A stretch of 64,000 bases of DNA. Origin: Arthrobacter sp. NEB 688. GTDB lineage: Bacteria > Actinomycetota > Actinomycetes > Actinomycetales > Dermatophilaceae. The notes beneath the pieces are model-generated. The model did not search any database. It was given only the letters and a program-made list of their open reading frames with translations, and was not told the DNA's origin. Positions 55,771-64,000 of the stretch are shown here, piece by piece. The stretch covers positions 1,240,001 through 1,304,000 of the forward strand of contig NZ_CP053707.1 in assembly GCF_013201035.1 (NCBI RefSeq), written 5' to 3'. The position numbers and the translations under genes were made by a program. Each line of letters starts with the position of its first letter. The stretch's first letter is position 1.

Positions 55771-56462
55771 GCCGGGTCGCCTACCGGGCCGGGCACCTCG
55801 TCATCGCGCCGGCGTCGAAGCTGCTCTGGCGACCGACGGTCACCGGGACCCACCACGTGCCGCGCACCGGCGGGGTCGTCCTCGCCTCCAACCACCTGTC
55901 GTTCATCGACTCCTTCGCCATCCCGATCGTCGCGCCGCGGCCGGTCAGCTTCCTCGCGAAGTCCGACTACTTCACCGGCCCCGGGGTCGGCGGCGCGGTA
56001 CGGCGCGGCTTCTTCGAGACCATCGGCGCCATCCCCGTCGACCGGCACTCCTCGCGCGCGGCGCAGGAGTCGCTCGACGCCGCGCTCGAGGTGCTGCGGG
56101 CCGGGCGCGCCTTCGGCATCTACCCCGAGGGCACCCGCTCGCGCGACGGCCGCCTCTACAAGGGGCGCACCGGGGTCGCGTGGCTCGCGCTGACCGCCGG
56201 CGTGCCGGTCGTCCCGGTGGGGCTCGTCGGCACCGACGCCGTCCAGCCGGTCGGCAGCAGCTTCCCGCGGCGGGCGAAGGTCCGCGTCTCGTTCGGGCCG
56301 CCGATCCACCCCGGTCCCTACGCCGGGATGCCCGCCGGCAAGGCGCGCCGCCTGATGACCGACGCGGTGATGGACGCCATCGCGGGGCTGAGCGGCCAGG
56401 AGCGGGCCGACACCCACAACGAGCTCCCGCCCGAGAGCACCGGCGCGGCCGTCGGCATCTGA
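55767..56462 (+). CDS. 1-acyl-glycerol-3-phosphate acyltransferase (PlsC family)
   Basis: 231 residues from the GTG overlapping the dnaX stop. The PlsC fold motifs are present: NHLSFID (HX4D catalytic block, about 42-48), the FFETIGAIPVDR block (about 82-93), the acceptor-binding FGIYPEGTRSRDGRLYKGRTG (EGTR, about 116-136) and VPVVPVGLVGTDAVQP. It transfers an acyl chain to lysophosphatidate at the inner face of the membrane. Lack of a long hydrophobic N terminus is typical of the shorter actinobacterial members. Coupled to dnaX by overlap, with no obvious functional link. Confidence 0.88.
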   Translation: MSRVAYRAGHLVIAPASKLLWRPTVTGTHHVPRTGGVVLASNHLSFIDSFAIPIVAPRPVSFLAKSDYFTGPGVGGAVRRGFFETIGAIPVDRHSSRAAQESLDAALEVLRAGRAFGIYPEGTRSRDGRLYKGRTGVAWLALTAGVPVVPVGLVGTDAVQPVGSSFPRRAKVRVSFGPPIHPGPYAGMPAGKARRLMTDAVMDAIAGLSGQERADTHNELPPESTGAAVGI

Positions 56463-56535
56463 GGCCGCCGAGCCGACCCCGGGGGAGCCCGGCGCATACT
56501 GGGGGGAGGTATCCGTCGACGAGAGGAGCCGGCCC

Positions 56536-56757
56536 GTGCCGAGCACCCAGCAGTTCCGCGCCACCGGTCTGACCTGCGGCCACTGCGCCCACGCCGTCAC
56601 CGAGGAGCTCACCGCCCTCGACGGCGTCGACGAGGTGGCGGTCGAGGTCGTGAGCGGCGGGGAGTCGCTCGTCACCGTCACCGGGCGCGGGCTGACCGAC
56701 GCCGAGGTCGCGGCTGCGCTCGACGAGGCCGGCGACTACGCGCTCGTCACGGGCTGA
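56536..56757 (+). CDS. Heavy-metal-associated (CopZ-like) domain protein
   Basis: 73 residues from GTG 56536, with GAGAGGAG upstream. One HMA ferredoxin-like fold with the copper motif GLTCGHCAHAV (Cys-x2-Cys, about 11-21), followed by TEELTALDGVDEVAVEVVSGGESLVTV. Such proteins carry Cu(I) to P-type ATPases. No copper ATPase or CsoR gene is adjacent, so the partner must be elsewhere. The upstream spacer (56463-56535) carries a possible TACTGG but no clear promoter. Confidence 0.88.
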   Translation: MPSTQQFRATGLTCGHCAHAVTEELTALDGVDEVAVEVVSGGESLVTVTGRGLTDAEVAAALDEAGDYALVTG

Positions 56758-56829
56758 CGCTCCCCGCCGCGCCCGCCGCGCCGACCATCCCGTGGACGCC
56801 CCGGACCGCCCATCCGGGCCGTGAGGCCG

Positions 56830-56835
56830 TAGTCT
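56830..56835 (+). promoter_or_regulatory. -10 box of recR
   Basis: TAGTCT ends 7 nt before GTG 56843; no ribosome-binding site is present. Confidence 0.55.
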
Positions 56836-56842
56836 CGTCGGC

Positions 56843-57445
56843 GTGTACGAAGGCGCGGTCCAGGACCTCATCGACGAGCTCGGCAGGCTGCCGGGTGTCG
56901 GCCCCAAGAGCGCCCAGCGCATCGCGTTCCACCTCCTGCAGGCCGACCCCGCCGACGTCGAGCGCCTCGCGCACGCCCTGACCGAGGTCAAGGCGCGGGT
57001 GCGCTTCTGCGCGGTCTGCTTCAACGTCGCCGAGGGCGAGCGCTGCCGGATCTGCGCCGACCCGCGCCGCGACGACGCCTCGATCTGCGTCGTCGAGGAG
57101 CCCAAGGACGTCGTCGCCATCGAGCGCACCCGCGAGTTCCGCGGCCGCTACCACGTGCTCGGCGGGGCGATCAGCCCGATCGACGGCATCGGCCCGGAGG
57201 ACCTGCGCGTCCGCGAGCTGCTCGCGCGGCTCGGGGACGGCACCGTGACCGAGGTCATCATCGCGACCGACCCCAACCTCGAGGGCGAGGCGACGGCGAG
57301 CTACCTCTCCCGGATGCTGCGCGACATCGGCGTGCAGCGCGTCACCCGGCTCGCGTCCGGGCTGCCGGTCGGCGGTGACCTCGAGTACGCCGACGAGGTG
57401 ACGCTCGGCCGGGCGTTCGAGGGACGGAGGCTGCTCGATGTCTGA
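56843..57445 (+). CDS. recR: Recombination protein RecR
   Basis: 200 residues from GTG 56843. It loads RecA at gaps together with RecF and RecO. Seen in order: a helix-hairpin-helix ([24 protein letters not shown], about 8-31), a C4 zinc finger ([16 protein letters not shown], about 57-72), and a Toprim domain with [15 protein letters not shown] and [18 protein letters not shown], then a C-terminal Walker-B-like segment. The length is standard. It keeps the common dnaX-recR linkage, here with plsC and the HMA gene between. It overlaps the DUF5063 gene by 8 bp. Confidence 0.96.
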
Positions 57446-58013
57446 GGCCCCCGGCGTGCTCGGTGGCGACTGGGCGCGGCTCGCCGACGAGACCGCGCTC
57501 GACGCCCGCACCTACCTCGTGACCATCCGCGAGGTCGCGGCCGGCGAGGCGCCCGACGCCGCGCTGCCGATGCTGCTCCTCGCGCTCTCGCAGGTGCTCC
57601 TCGCGGGGGCGCGGCTCGGCGCCGTCCAGGACGTCGTGCCGGAGGAGCGCTTCGAGCCCGACCCCGGCCCGGACCCCGAGCTCGACCCGCTGCGCGAGAA
57701 CCTGCGCAACATCTTCGAGGGCCTGGACGAGTACGCCGACGTCGTCGACCCGCTGACCACCCCCGAGCTCGGGGTGGGCACGGTGAGCAACGACCTCGTC
57801 GACGTCGCCGCGGCCCTGGCCCACGGGCTCGAGCACCACGACGCCGGCCGGCCGCTCGAGGCCCTCTGGTGGTGGCAGTTCAGCTACCTGTCGCACTGGG
57901 GCGAGCGCGCCGCCTCCTCGCTCCGGGTCGTCCAGAGCCTGCTCGCGCACGTCCGCCTCGACGCCGACGCGGACGCCGTCGCCGAGGCGGAGTTCGACGC
58001 GCTGCACCCGTAG
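57438..58013 (+). CDS. DUF5063 protein
   Basis: 191 residues; ATG 57438 inside the recR end. It is acidic and helical, with [43 protein letters not shown], the Pro/Asp-rich [22 protein letters not shown], and [31 protein letters not shown]5063 genes commonly follow recR in actinobacteria; the function is unknown, though a link to recombination or replication is suggested by synteny alone. It is convergent with the ferredoxin-reductase gene. Confidence 0.85.
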
Positions 58014-58038
58014 GCGTCGCGCCCGGCGCCCGCGCCGG

Positions 58039-59169
58039 TCAGTCGCTCTCGTCCTCGGGCAGCTCGCCCGAGTCGACGGCCGCCTTGATGACGTCGCCGG
58101 CGTCCCAGTCGTTGACGTGCATCGCCGCGACGACGTCGCCGTCGCGCAGCCAGAAGGCGCGGAACTCGCGGTCCTCGAGGCTGCCGTGCACGACGACCTC
58201 GTCGTCCTCGCTCGCGCTGCCGACGTACTCCATCCCGAGGTCGTACTGGTCGGTGAAGAAGTACGGCATCTCCTCGTACTCCTCGTCGGCCCCGGCGAGG
58301 TTGTGCGCGGCGACCTTGGCCTGCTTGATCGCGGTGTCCCAGTGCTCGACCCGGATGCGCCGGCCGAGGCGCGGGTGGGCGTGGTTGGCGATGTCGCCGA
58401 CGGCGAGCACCGACGCCACCGACGAGCGCAGGCGCGAGTCGACGAGCACGCCGTTGTCGACGTCGAGGCCGCCGGCGTGCGCGAGCTCGACGCGGGGCTT
58501 GACGCCGATGCCGGCGACGACGAGGTCGGCGCCCTTGAGGTCGTCGGTCGTCACGTCGGTGCCGAGGCGCAGCTGCACGCCGTGCTCGCGGTGCAGGTCG
58601 GCGAAGACCCGGGCGACGGTCGGGCCGAGCGCGTGCAGCAGCGGCAGCTCCTCGCGCTCGAAGAGGGTGACCTCGGCCCCGGCCTTGCGGGCGGCGGCCG
58701 CGGCCTCGAGGCCGATCCAGCCGCCGCCGACGACGACGACCTTGCGGCCCTCGGCGAAGGCCTCGCGCAGCCGGTCGGCGTCGTCCTTGGTGCGCAGGTA
58801 GGCGACCGGTACGCCGGCGTCCTCGGCGAGGTCGAGGACCCGGGGCTCGGCGCCGGTGGCCAGCAGCAGCTTCTCGTAGGTGAGGTCGCCGTCGCTCGTC
58901 GACAGGACGTGGCCGTCGGTGTCCAGGCCCGTCGCGGTCACGCCGAGGCGCAGGTCGACGTCGTGCTCGGCGTACCACTCGCGCGGGTGGACCAGGGCCT
59001 TCTCGAAGGGGTCGTCCCCGAGGAGGTAGCCCTTCGAGAGCGGCGGGCGCTCGTACGGGGGGTGCTCCTCGCTGCCGAGGAGCACGATCGGGCCGGTGTG
59101 GCCCTGCTCCCGCAGCTCGGTGGCGGCGGTGGCTCCGGCGAGCCCTGCTCCGACGATGACGATCGACAT
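58039..59169 (-). CDS. FAD-dependent ferredoxin/rubredoxin reductase-type oxidoreductase
   Basis: 376 residues from ATG 59169, with TAGCGT ending 6 nt upstream. FAD-binding [17 protein letters not shown] (GxGxxG, about 4-20), the ferredoxin-reductase block [15 protein letters not shown] (about 37-51), a second dinucleotide motif [22 protein letters not shown] (NAD(P)H, about 143-164), and the second FAD motif [33 protein letters not shown]. Transfers electrons from NAD(P)H to a ferredoxin, possibly for a cytochrome P450 or oxygenase, but no partner gene is adjacent. The acidic tail (GELPEDESD) is unremarkable. Confidence 0.9.
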
Positions 59170-59175
59170 GCTCCG

Positions 59176-59181
59176 ACGCTA
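59176..59181 (-). promoter_or_regulatory. -10 box of the ferredoxin-reductase-type gene
   Basis: TAGCGT on the minus strand, ending 6 nt before ATG 59169. Confidence 0.55.
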
Positions 59182-59256
59182 GCGTCGCACCCCGCCGACG
59201 GGGGCGCGAGCGTCGCCGGGATGCCGCGGCCGTCCGTGCTCCGGCCCCCGGGGGTG

Positions 59257-59486
59257 TGCAGCAACCGACGAAAGTGTCACTTCCTGCACGTACCCAGCAC
59301 CCGACCCGTGCATCGATCGTCGCTTTCGTCAGTTCCTGCACGGTCGGGCGTGCAGAAATCGACGAAAGTGTCACTTCCTGCACGCACCCCGTGCCCGACC
59401 CGTGCATCGATCGTCGCTTTCGTCAGTTCTTGCACGGTCGGGCGTGCATCGATCGTCGCTTTCGTCAGTTTGTGCACGGTCGGGCG
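59257..59486. repeat. 94-bp tandem repeat built of 32-nt pseudo-palindromes
   Basis: Five 32-nt units bounded by TGCA: forward units (core GAAAGT) at 59257-59288 and 59351-59382, reverse units (core GCTTTC) at 59309-59340, 59403-59434 and 59445-59476. Forward units are followed by 20-nt spacers and reverse units by CGGTCGGGCG. This gives two complete 94-bp repeats (59257-59350, 59351-59444) and a partial third. It occupies most of the 407-bp gap between the divergent ferredoxin-reductase and lysC genes. TACAGT at 59532-59537 is a possible lysC -10 box; nothing else is seen in the gap. Confidence 0.88.
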
Positions 59487-59576
59487 GGCATCCGGATGGT
59501 GGGCGCGCGGTCCGGTCCGTGGACACCTCGTTACAGTGGTCCCGACCCTGCAGCGCCACGACCCGGGAGTACCACC

Positions 59577-60851
<1,275 letters not shown>

Positions 60852-60852
60852 C

Positions 60853-61947
60853 GTGCCCTCCTCCGCCTCCTCCCGCACCGGCCGGCGCCCCACCCTCGGG
60901 GTCGTCGGCGGCACCGGGGCCGTGGGGCGGGTCGTCCTCCAGGTCCTGCCGATGCACCGGCACGTCTGGGGCGAGGTGCGGGTCGCCGCCGGCGCCGAGG
61001 ACGTCGGGACGATGCTGCGGGTCGGCGACGAGGAGCTGACCGTCGAGGCGGTGGCGCCGGACTTCTTCGACGGCCTCGACGTCGCGATCTTCGACATCCC
61101 GCCGAGCATCGCCCGCGAGTGGGTCGAGCTCGCGGCCTCCCGTGGCGTCGTGTGCATCGACAACAGCACGGTCTTCCGCACCGAGCCCGACGTCCCGCTC
61201 GTCGTCCCCGAGGTCAACCCGCGCCGCGTCGCCGACCGGCCGCGCGGCATCATCGCCAACCCCGGCGCCACGGTCATGACGATGATCGACGTCCTCGCCG
61301 TGCTGCACAGCGGCTGGGAGCTGACCGAGCTCGTCGTCACGACCTTCCAGGCCGCCTCCGGCCTCGGCCGCGCGGGGATGGCCCGGCTGCGCGACGAGCT
61401 CGAGGTCGTCGCCGCCGACCGCGACCTCGGGACCCGCCCGGGCGACGTGCGCCGGCTCGTCGAGCACGAGCTCGGGGTGGCCTCGCCGTTCCCGGCCCCG
61501 TTGGCGCTCAACGTCGTCCCCTTCGTCGGGCACCACCAGGGCGCCGGCTGGACCTCCGAGGAGATCAAGGTCCGCGACGAGACCCGCAAGATCCTCGACC
61601 TGCCCGACCTGCCCGTCTCCGCCACGTGCGTGCGCGTCCCGGTCGTGTCGTCGCACTCGGTCTCGCTGCACGCGTCGTTCGGCCGCAAGGTCGACGTCGA
61701 CGCCGCCCGCCAGGCCCTCGTCGAGGCGCCGGCCGTCGTCGTCCTCGACGACCCGGACGAGCCGGAGTTCCCCACGCCCAACGACGTCGTCGGCGCCGAT
61801 CCGCGCTTCGCGGGGCGCATCCGGCAGGACCCGGGCGCCCCGACGACCCTCGACCTCTTCATCTGTGGCGACAACCTGCGCAAGGGCGCCGCGCTCAACA
61901 TGGTGCAGACGGCCGAGCTCGTCGCCGCCGACCTCCGGGGCCGGTGA
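60853..61947 (+). CDS. asd: Aspartate-semialdehyde dehydrogenase homologue lacking the catalytic Cys
   Basis: 364 residues from GTG 60853. Active enzymes reduce aspartyl phosphate to the semialdehyde with NADPH. The NADP-binding start (LGVVGGTGAVGRVVLQVL), the segment CIDNSTVFRTEPDVPLVVPEVNP, the substrate Gln (TTFQAASGLGRAGM) and the Arg/His pair region (CVRVPVVSSHSVSLHASF) are all present. The active-site motif, normally N-P-x-C-T-T, reads NPGATVM: the Cys is Ala139 (codon GCC 61267-61269). It is placed exactly where asd follows ask. Either it is a pseudo-enzyme or its chemistry differs; a second, intact asd is expected elsewhere. Confidence 0.85.
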   Translation: MPSSASSRTGRRPTLGVVGGTGAVGRVVLQVLPMHRHVWGEVRVAAGAEDVGTMLRVGDEELTVEAVAPDFFDGLDVAIFDIPPSIAREWVELAASRGVVCIDNSTVFRTEPDVPLVVPEVNPRRVADRPRGIIANPGATVMTMIDVLAVLHSGWELTELVVTTFQAASGLGRAGMARLRDELEVVAADRDLGTRPGDVRRLVEHELGVASPFPAPLALNVVPFVGHHQGAGWTSEEIKVRDETRKILDLPDLPVSATCVRVPVVSSHSVSLHASFGRKVDVDAARQALVEAPAVVVLDDPDEPEFPTPNDVVGADPRFAGRIRQDPGAPTTLDLFICGDNLRKGAALNMVQTAELVAADLRGR

Positions 61948-62630
61948 CCCCCACCGTCCTGCACCGGGCCGCGCCGACGAGCGTGCGCGACGGGCTCGTC
62001 GTCCTGCTCGCGGTGACGAGCGGCGCGACCGACGCCGTCGGCTTCCTCGCCCTCGGCAGCGCGTTCACGAGCGTCATGACCGGCAACATGGTGCTGTTCG
62101 GGATGGGGCTGGCCCGCGGCGACGGTGCGGCCCTCGCGCTGACCGCCGTCGCGATCGGCTCCTTCGTCACCGGAGCCGCGCTCGGCGCCCGGATCGCCGG
62201 CTCCCCGCGCACCGGTGACCCGGTGTGGCCGAGGCGGATCCGCGCCGCCCTCGGGGTCGAGCTCGCGCTCTTCGCGGTGTTCGCCCTCGCGTGGTGGGGC
62301 CTCGGCGCCGCGCCGCCGGAGCCGGCGTTCCTCCCGCTGCTCGCGCTCAACGCGGTGGCGCTCGGCATCCAGAGCAGCGCGATCCAGCGCTTCGGGGTAC
62401 CGGGCCTGTCGACGACCTACCTGACCGGCACGCTGACGAGCGTCGTCGGCCGGCTCGTCTCCGGGCACGGCCTGCGGGCCGTGGGTCACTCCCTGACGAT
62501 CCTCGCCGGGCTCGTCGCCGGAGCGGGGCTCGGCGCGACCCTCGTGCGCGTCGCGCCCGCGGCCGTCCCCCTCGTCCAGCTCGTGCCGGTGGGGCTGGTC
62601 CTCCTCGGCAGCCGCCTCGTGCGCGCCTGA
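61944..62630 (+). CDS. DUF1275 (YoaK-family) membrane protein
   Basis: 228 residues from the GTG overlapping the asd stop (GTGA). Helices and family motifs: LVVLLAVTSGATDAVGFLALGSAFTSVMTGNMVLFGM (about 18-54, with the conserved SG-x-x-DA-x-G-F and TGN), VAIGSFVTGAALGARIAG, FLPLLALNAVALGIQSSAI, and LSTTYLTGTLTSVVGRLVSG. DUF1275 proteins have six helices and unknown transport activity. It is translationally coupled to the lysine-pathway genes, but no link to them is known. Confidence 0.9.
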   Translation: MTPTVLHRAAPTSVRDGLVVLLAVTSGATDAVGFLALGSAFTSVMTGNMVLFGMGLARGDGAALALTAVAIGSFVTGAALGARIAGSPRTGDPVWPRRIRAALGVELALFAVFALAWWGLGAAPPEPAFLPLLALNAVALGIQSSAIQRFGVPGLSTTYLTGTLTSVVGRLVSGHGLRAVGHSLTILAGLVAGAGLGATLVRVAPAAVPLVQLVPVGLVLLGSRLVRA

Positions 62631-62799
62631 CCGGACGGGTCACGCAGGAGGTCCCACGGCGCCGCAGAGGTCGCGGGAGGGGTGGGAGGTGCCGCGTGCC
62701 GGGGGCGGCGTGCCGTCCGCGATGGTGACCGCCGCCACACGCCGGCCCGATCGTTGCCAGAATGGCCGTGCCGCACCGTCCATCGAAGGAGCCCGCACC

Positions 62800-63999
62800 A
62801 TGACCGTCCGCACCGTCGCCATGCTCACCGCCGGTGGCCTGGCCCCGTGCCTCTCGTCGGCCGTCGGCGGCCTCATCGAGCGGTACACCGAGGTCGCGCC
62901 CGACGTGCGGATCATCGCCTACACGGGGGGCTACACCGGCCTGCTCAAGGGCGAGTACGTCGAGGTGACGCCCGAGGTCCGCGAGAAGGCCCACCTGCTG
63001 CACCGCTTCGGTGGCAGCCCGATCGGCAACAGCCGGGTCAAGCTGACCAACGTCGCCGACTGCGTGCGCCGCGGCCTCGTCCAGGAGGGCCAGGACCCGC
63101 TGCACGTCGCGGCCGAGCGGCTGACCGCGGACGGCGTCGACGTCCTGCACACGATCGGCGGCGACGACACCAACACGACGGCCGCCGACCTCGCCGCCTA
63201 CCTCCACGAGAACGGCTACGAGCTGACCGTCGTCGGCCTGCCGAAGACGATCGACAACGACGTCGTCCCGATCCGCCAGAGCCTCGGCGCCTGGACGGCC
63301 GCCGAGCAGGGGAGCCGGTTCGCGCAGAACGTCATCGCCGAGCACTCCTCCAACCCGCGGATGCTCATCGTCCACGAGGTGATGGGCCGGCACTGCGGCT
63401 GGCTGACCGCCGCCACGGCCGCCGAGTACCACCGCTGGGTCGGCGAGCAGGAGTACGTGCCGGCCATCGGCAACGACCCGCGCGCCTGGGACGTGCACGC
63501 CGTCTTCGTGCCCGAGCGCCACATCGACATCGAGGCCGAGGGCGCGCGCCTGCGCGCGGTCATGGACGAGGTCGGCTGCGTCAACATCTTCCTGTCCGAG
63601 GGCGCCGGCGTCGAGGAGGTCGTCGCGCAGCTCGAGGCGAGCGGCCAGGAGGTCCCGCGCGACCCGTTCGGCCACGTCCAGCTCGACAAGGTCAACCCCG
63701 GCGCCTGGTTCGCCAAGCAGTTCGCCGAGGTCCTCGGCGCCGAGAAGACGATGGTCCAGAAGTCCGGCTACTTCTCCCGCTCGGCCCCGGCGAACGAGCG
63801 CGACCTCGCCCTCATCAAGGAGTGCACCGACCTCGCGGTCGACGCGGCGCTGCGCGGCGAGCCGGGCGTCATCGGGCACGACGAGGAGCGCGGCGACGAG
63901 CTGCGTCCGGTCGAGTTCCCGCGCATCCGCGGTGGCAAGGCCTTCGACCCGAGCGTCCCGTGGTTCACCGAGCTGCTGGAGTCCCTCGGCCAGGCGTGA
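62800..63999 (+). CDS. pfp: Pyrophosphate-dependent 6-phosphofructokinase
   Basis: 399 residues; ATG 62800 after GAAGGA. Interconverts fructose-6-phosphate and fructose-1,6-bisphosphate. PfkA-fold with MLTAGGLAPCLSSAVGGLI at the N terminus, the phosphoryl-donor motif TIGGDDTNTTAADL and catalytic block PKTIDNDVVP. Asp in GGDD (Gly in ATP enzymes) and Lys in PKTIDND (Gly in ATP enzymes) are the two marks of PPi use. MGRHCGWLTAATA binds the sugar phosphate. Length is close to that of the reversible Propionibacterium PPi-PFK. The gene ends at the window edge but is complete. Confidence 0.92.
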   Translation: MTVRTVAMLTAGGLAPCLSSAVGGLIERYTEVAPDVRIIAYTGGYTGLLKGEYVEVTPEVREKAHLLHRFGGSPIGNSRVKLTNVADCVRRGLVQEGQDPLHVAAERLTADGVDVLHTIGGDDTNTTAADLAAYLHENGYELTVVGLPKTIDNDVVPIRQSLGAWTAAEQGSRFAQNVIAEHSSNPRMLIVHEVMGRHCGWLTAATAAEYHRWVGEQEYVPAIGNDPRAWDVHAVFVPERHIDIEAEGARLRAVMDEVGCVNIFLSEGAGVEEVVAQLEASGQEVPRDPFGHVQLDKVNPGAWFAKQFAEVLGAEKTMVQKSGYFSRSAPANERDLALIKECTDLAVDAALRGEPGVIGHDEERGDELRPVEFPRIRGGKAFDPSVPWFTELLESLGQA

Positions 64000-64000
64000 G

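Follow-up and report, generated by a model that had tools for sequence, protein, structure and literature searches.

A cysteine-less aspartate-semialdehyde dehydrogenase homologue behind lysC in Dermatophilaceae is a candidate non-catalytic subunit of the aspartate pathway

Introduction

In aspartate-semialdehyde dehydrogenase (ASADH, Asd) a cysteine makes the nucleophilic attack, an arginine and a lysine hold the phosphate, a glutamate and another arginine hold the amino acid, and a histidine is the acid-base residue (PMC3276109). Exchange of the cysteine for serine in a real ASADH (C136S) leaves <0.01% of the activity (PMC3276109). The M. jannaschii enzyme lacks the arginine that contacts the NADP 2'-phosphate, yet is active (PMC3276109), so loss of this arginine alone need not stop an ASADH.

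An Asd without the cysteine has precedent. The Usg protein of E. coli K-12, a putative semialdehyde dehydrogenase (L253:3637-4650, minus strand), is an Asd paralogue with serine in place of the cysteine. Its gene lies between pdxB and truA, and a pdxB-usg-truA-dedA operon is described in Salmonella (PMC6358828). Dead biosynthetic paralogues that occur beside an active copy are known as prozymes in trypanosomatids, where those of AdoMetDC and deoxyhypusine synthase have known partners and measured activation (PMC3663545, PMC5201418). In the arginine metabolon of yeast, a partner protein (the synthase NAGS) alters the feedback inhibition of an amino-acid kinase (NAGK; PMC3329491). In those parts of the open-licence literature that were available, no paper on a dead lysC-linked Asd or on an ASADH 'pseudoenzyme' was found, an absence that carries little weight, nor was a description found of a lysC-linked, pocket-keeping class without the cysteine or of its repeated origin. 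The passages of PMC2705460 consulted show no aspartate kinase-ASADH fusion.

The gene described here lies in a window of 64,000 nucleotides, the whole stretch of DNA analysed, from Arthrobacter sp. NEB 688, whose genome is a single contig of 4.08 Mb. Below, asd2 denotes the lysC-linked copy and asd1 the intact copy of mycobacterial type.

Results

The lysC-asd2 locus

The two genes lie in series on the same strand, and the GTG start of asd2 is 1 bp past the lysC stop.

59577..60851, + strand: aspartate kinase gene lysC, with an approximate start; its stop is 1 bp ahead of asd2 (NCBIfam PRK06635, over cut-off)
60853..61947, + strand: asd2, cysteine-less ASADH homologue, GTG start, 364 amino acids (Pfam, NCBIfam, structure model)

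This lysC is the only convincing one in a search of the genome, the second match reaching 18.6 bits. The asd2 protein has the Pfam domains Semialdhyde_dh and Semialdhyde_dhC. It scores 348.7 bits with NCBIfam PRK14874, over the cut-off of 223, and falls just under that of TIGR01296 (312.6 bits, cut-off 324.2). Its structure model (pLDDT 94.2) has the ASADH fold, and the best PDB match is the M. tuberculosis ASADH 3tz6, with a TM-score of 0.84 by query length.

The region upstream of lysC (59252-59490) carries direct repeats, one of 94 nt present twice (91%) and one of 48 nt present three times (94-98%). A 26-nt core of these repeats occurs in 14 copies in the genome (at most 2 mismatches); every copy is on the plus strand, and the copies form small clusters in the region from 0.54 to 1.49 Mb. 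No Rfam match was obtained in 56000-64000, which includes the repeats.

Active-site residues

The features of the active site are listed below. Class A refers to the 42 family copies of the window type, defined by Ala139 together with K239.

60907..60927, + strand: GGTGAVG glycine motif (residues 19-25), kept (alignment)
60991..61002, + strand: GAED (residues 47-50), replacing SARS, the NADP 2'-phosphate site of active copies (alignments)
61177..61179, + strand: Arg109, the phosphate-binding Arg of ASADH, kept (41/42 class A copies)
61258..61278, + strand: NPGATVM (N136-M142), replacing NPNCTTM (sequence, alignments)
61264-61266, + strand: Gly138, replacing the Asn next to the Cys (the second Asn of N-P-N-C; sequence)
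61267-61269, + strand: Ala139, codon GCC, at the nucleophile position (sequence)
61348..61350, + strand: Gln166, kept (42/42 class A copies)
61558..61569, + strand: EEIK (residues 236-239), kept; E236 for the substrate amino group and K239 for the phosphate (42/42; roles from PMC3276109)
61633..61656, + strand: Arg261 (carboxylate) to His268 (acid-base), both kept (42/42; roles from PMC3276109)

The initial annotation had placed an alanine (GCC) where this lysC-linked asd homologue should carry its catalytic cysteine, and had considered the Gln, Arg and His of the active site to be retained. The sequence and the HMMER alignment, which pairs NPGATVM with NPNCTTM of the M. tuberculosis ASADH (3vos), agree on the first point, and Q166, R261 and H268 are all present, as are R109, E236 and K239. 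Two further changes had escaped that annotation: the second Asn of N-P-N-C has become Gly, and SARS has become GAED, leaving Glu49 at the position of the NADP 2'-phosphate arginine. By analogy with C136S, an alanine at the nucleophile position should do no better than a serine.

The window protein has cysteines at positions 101, 259 and 338. None of them is a conserved new nucleophile that could stand in for the missing residue. C259 is found in 42/42 class A copies and 15/15 intact copies, C338 in 29/42 and 15/15, and C101 in only 5/42 and 0/15.

Taken as a whole, asd2 resembles the ASADHs of PRK14874 / TIGR01296 in its fold and domains, in all substrate residues checked and in having arisen from the type that Actinomycetes carry beside lysC. 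It differs from them in lacking the nucleophilic cysteine, the adjoining asparagine and the NADP-phosphate arginine, and in the presence of a second Asd. The likeness to E. coli Usg is limited to being a Cys-less paralogue: Usg has not kept the pocket (the phosphate Arg is Ala and the Lys is Arg), shares 33% identity with the window protein and is not linked to lysC, whereas asd2 shows neither the replacement of most pocket residues nor the position beside truA.

An intact second asd

The initial annotation had also predicted that an intact second asd must exist, and the genome search located it. This gene, asd1 (G000:C1:3279863-3280882, minus strand), reads NPNCTTM at the nucleophile, and all of its site residues that were checked are present. 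It is 44% identical to asd2 and lies ~2 Mb away; two genome searches gave no third Asd homologue. As in the prozymes, then, a key catalytic residue has been lost while the fold is kept and an active paralogue is present, the activity of asd1 being judged from its residues only.

Cysteine state and asd1 across the family

Within the window's family (group f1), 149 genomes were searched; 147 gave an Asd match at E 1e-10 and 130 gave asd1 at E 1e-100. The table of lysC-linked asd2 contains 99 family copies, open over 333-364 aligned residues. The alignment of lysC-adjacent asd genes that had been called for places 81 of these 99 copies in the cysteine-less state, 42 of them with the combination of Ala and K239. 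The residue at the cysteine position is Ala in 54 copies, Cys in 18, Pro in 12, Gly in 11, Ser in 3 and Asp in 1. In the window's genus, where ten genomes were searched, it is Ala in all nine copies read. The tenth genome (G053), given as 99% complete, yielded neither lysC nor asd2, which probably reflects an assembly gap at the locus.

The presence of asd1 differs with the cysteine state. Among the cysteine-less genomes 76 of 81 have asd1, and the five in which it was not seen (G030, G066, G079, G093 and G118) are assemblies of 160-410 contigs with 83-95% completeness; two of these, G066 and G079, each gave a second match in the Asd search at E 1e-10. Among the 18 Cys-bearing genomes asd1 is absent in 12, and the asd2 copies of these 12 keep all listed residues, except that the NADP Arg is missing in L045. 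The rule is not strict, since asd1 and a Cys-bearing asd2 occur together in the remaining six. Of these six, G041, G086 and G107 have an intact asd2 (contamination is 5% in both G086 and G107), and G006, G042 and G078 have lost another site residue. This pattern would be expected if a second asd frees asd2 from its job. A phylogeny-corrected test of cysteine loss against asd1, which with only 3 independent pairs has no power, gave p = 1.

The asd2 copies L052, L206 and L056 keep the cysteine and have lost the lysine, together with the phosphate Arg in L052 and the Gln in L206. Judged by their residues, these copies appear to represent a different route to inactivation.

Classes of cysteine-less asd2

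Class A has a nearly invariant pocket. Q166, E236, E237, K239 (by definition), R261 and H268 are each present in 42/42 copies, as are Gly138 and the four glycine-motif residues counted, and R109 is present in 41. The NADP-phosphate Arg is replaced by Glu or Asp in 39 of the 42. The columns constant in active asd2 number 112, and 78 of them hold the same residue in at least 95% of class A. Six residues set class A apart, being constant in at least 95% of its copies and present in no more than 10% of active ones: F71, G138, A139, R173, R318 and M350.

The second class (PGP, 13 copies) has lost the Gln, the carboxylate Arg and the motif's last Gly in 13/13 copies and the Lys in 11/13. Usg resembles this class, having Ile for the Gln and Gln for the carboxylate Arg while keeping the His. 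The third class consists of 21 copies in tandem lysC-asd1-asd2 rows, with the Lys replaced in all 21 and the carboxylate Arg in 18. Five cysteine-less copies fall outside these three classes. The His is kept in 81/81 cysteine-less copies.

Origin and number of cysteine losses

The nearest named relative among the matches listed is Phycicoccus jejuensis (Intrasporangiaceae in NCBI), with 94% at the asd2 protein. In the named genome collection (at least 568 relatives) the best 80 loci were read. The cysteine is present in 71 and absent in 9, and lysC lies in the stretch at 79; the one exception, L114, has its match just after the start of a contig. The Cys-bearing loci among these include Streptomyces, Micromonospora, Kribbella, Nocardiopsis and Jiangella. 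A class-wide search of 394 genomes gave a match in 379, of which the best loci only were surveyed; 27 of the 30 loci have the cysteine, and the other three are from the window's family. These comparisons indicate that asd2 represents the lysC-linked enzyme that is usual in much of the Actinomycetes class. The 112 columns constant in 15 intact family copies were compared with 93 Cys-bearing copies that are not in the family table; at least 98% of these share the residue at each column, so that the ancestor of asd2 was in all likelihood an enzyme.

A tree was built from 102 proteins, comprising 78 of the 99 family copies (thinned at 90% identity), 11 outside copies and 13 asd1, with the columns of the cysteine motif left out. 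It requires at least four changes of cysteine state, or at least three within the family when an outside metagenome-assembled genome with Ser (L138) is set aside. Counts alone give no direction, and the changes are read as losses because the cysteine is present in 13/13 asd1 rows and 10/11 outside asd2 rows.

Selection, retention and loss

Purifying selection is strong in all groups analysed. For class A, omega is 0.087 in the window's genus (9 copies), 0.054 in g17 (9 copies) and 0.046 in g32 (6 copies), and the asd1 genes of the same three genome groups give 0.069, 0.061 and 0.044. Other cysteine-less groups give 0.076 (PGP class, 8 copies) and 0.072 (tandem, 5 copies; tandem asd1, 0.060), and intact asd2 gives 0.036 (4 copies) and 0.055 (5 copies). 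Fixing omega at 1 lowers the log-likelihood by 318 to 688 units across the five cysteine-less groups, and by >400 units in each of the three class A groups. The window-type asd2, with omega values close to those of active copies, is conserved as a protein and is not decaying.

Fifty of the 149 family genomes lie outside the asd2 table. Twenty of these were searched for lysC and 18 gave one. Twelve of these 18 loci have no Asd-like sequence in the ~1.5 kb behind lysC, four have asd1 there and one a split asd2, and at the last the contig ends. The split copy (L258, in G090) extends over two reading frames and is either a broken copy or an assembly error. Some members of the family thus do without asd2, which is not universally needed. 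The 12 loci without a trace of Asd suggest that unneeded copies are cleared, which makes the 81 cysteine-less copies that have been kept more telling.

Linkage to lysC

All 99 family copies of asd2 lie behind lysC on the same strand, with asd1 between the two in 21. At the other 78 loci the gap from the end of the lysC alignment is 3 to 207 bp in 75; of the other three, two overlap by 3 bp and one has no gap. Branch rates were compared in 35 genomes for which lysC, asd1 and asd2 were all available. Those of asd2 and lysC are correlated (partial rho 0.49, p 3e-5), as are those of asd2 and asd1 (0.34, p 0.005); the value for lysC and asd1 is 0.20 (p 0.11). The asd2-lysC correlation is modest and may in part reflect shared gene history. 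A comparison of LysC between class A and intact-asd2 genomes gave only two co-changing columns, one of them at the alignment edge.

Discussion

The window's asd2 is almost certainly not an NADPH-dependent ASADH, to judge from its residues. Of the two possibilities raised initially, a pseudo-enzyme or an enzyme of other chemistry, the former is the better reading, given the <0.01% activity of C136S, the additional loss of the NADP-phosphate site and the strong selection. It is very probable that the protein has a real, retained function. The suggestion that it is a partner or regulator of aspartate kinase is consistent with the gene order and the modest rate correlation.

The nucleophile and the NADPH site are gone and the binding residues are kept, as would be expected of a subunit that binds a ligand with no turnover. 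The explanation preferred here, with guarded confidence, is such a non-catalytic subunit, a regulator or scaffold whose most probable partner is LysC; a prozyme-like role on Asd1 ranks second. Action through LysC, taken by itself, is a serious possibility that falls somewhat short of probable. An ordinary lysC-linked ASADH of Actinomycetes would have given rise to a catalytically dead descendant, with a second asd doing the reaction. The descendant has lost the nucleophile (C139A), the adjoining Asn (N138G) and the NADP-phosphate site, and the aspartyl and phosphate pocket and the place behind lysC are kept under strong purifying selection. Such a protein would still fold and bind beta-aspartyl phosphate, or aspartate semialdehyde and phosphate, with no turnover, and would act as a regulator or scaffold for the first two steps of the pathway. 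The proposed role has a parallel in the yeast NAGS/NAGK metabolon, although there the partner is a synthase and here it would be a dead reductase.

The strongest alternative is that dead asd2 sets the activity of Asd1 in mixed dimers or tetramers. In this respect asd2 may be a counterpart of the trypanosomatid prozymes, whose activation is measured and whose partners are known. ASADHs form dimers through an extensive interface, and the sites of the Gram-negative enzymes communicate (PMC3276109); dead paralogues that activate an active partner have precedent (PMC5201418, PMC3663545); asd1 accompanies most cysteine-less copies, and 21 of these stand in the lysC-asd1-asd2 row. However, at 44% identity mixed dimers are not obvious, the two genes of the window's genome lie far apart while asd2 stays behind lysC, asd1 is in the stretch read at 0/42 class A loci, and the rates of asd2 follow asd1 less closely than lysC. 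Action through Asd1 is unlikely, if well worth considering.

New chemistry, for example hydrolysis or transfer on beta-aspartyl phosphate, perhaps with NAD(H) for NADPH, is improbable. The dinucleotide glycine motif is invariant in class A, and the change of Arg to Glu or Asp is often seen in NAD-preferring folds; His268 and the substrate residues are likewise invariant or nearly so. Against this, the residues particular to class A include no new conserved nucleophile or acid, and the other cysteine-less classes are without several pocket residues.

A decaying pseudogene kept by operon inertia would account for the loss of different residues in several lineages, for the genomes without the gene and for the split copy of G090, but is very hard to reconcile with 99/99 tabulated copies being open, with the near-invariant pocket of class A or with omega of 0.046-0.087, values that refute decay unless there is overlapping or nucleic-acid constraint. 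A sequencing or assembly error at the cysteine codon, for which there is nothing to be said, can be dismissed, as the same Ala occurs in 42 separate genomes.

A more specific form of the preferred regulator or scaffold is suggested by the glycine motif, which, when kept together with an acidic residue for the Arg, may mean NAD(H) binding, following the rule for NAD-preferring folds. On this speculative and rather doubtful reading, Dermatophilaceae asd2 would be a pseudoenzyme sensor on aspartokinase that binds NAD(H) and beta-aspartyl phosphate and couples flux into the aspartate family to the supply of the unstable product. If so, the changes at the cysteine, at least three, would represent lineages reaching a dead lysC-linked copy independently. 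An NCBIfam equivalog model labels asd2 as ASADH, a name by which pathway models, drug-target lists and strain engineering would be led astray. The gene may also reveal a control point on aspartokinase of which no description was found. The family offers a natural series, in which asd2 is intact and alone, intact beside a second asd, altered elsewhere with the cysteine kept, or dead with a near-perfect pocket, and this series opens to direct test the way in which a core pathway comes to retain a dead enzyme as a permanent component.
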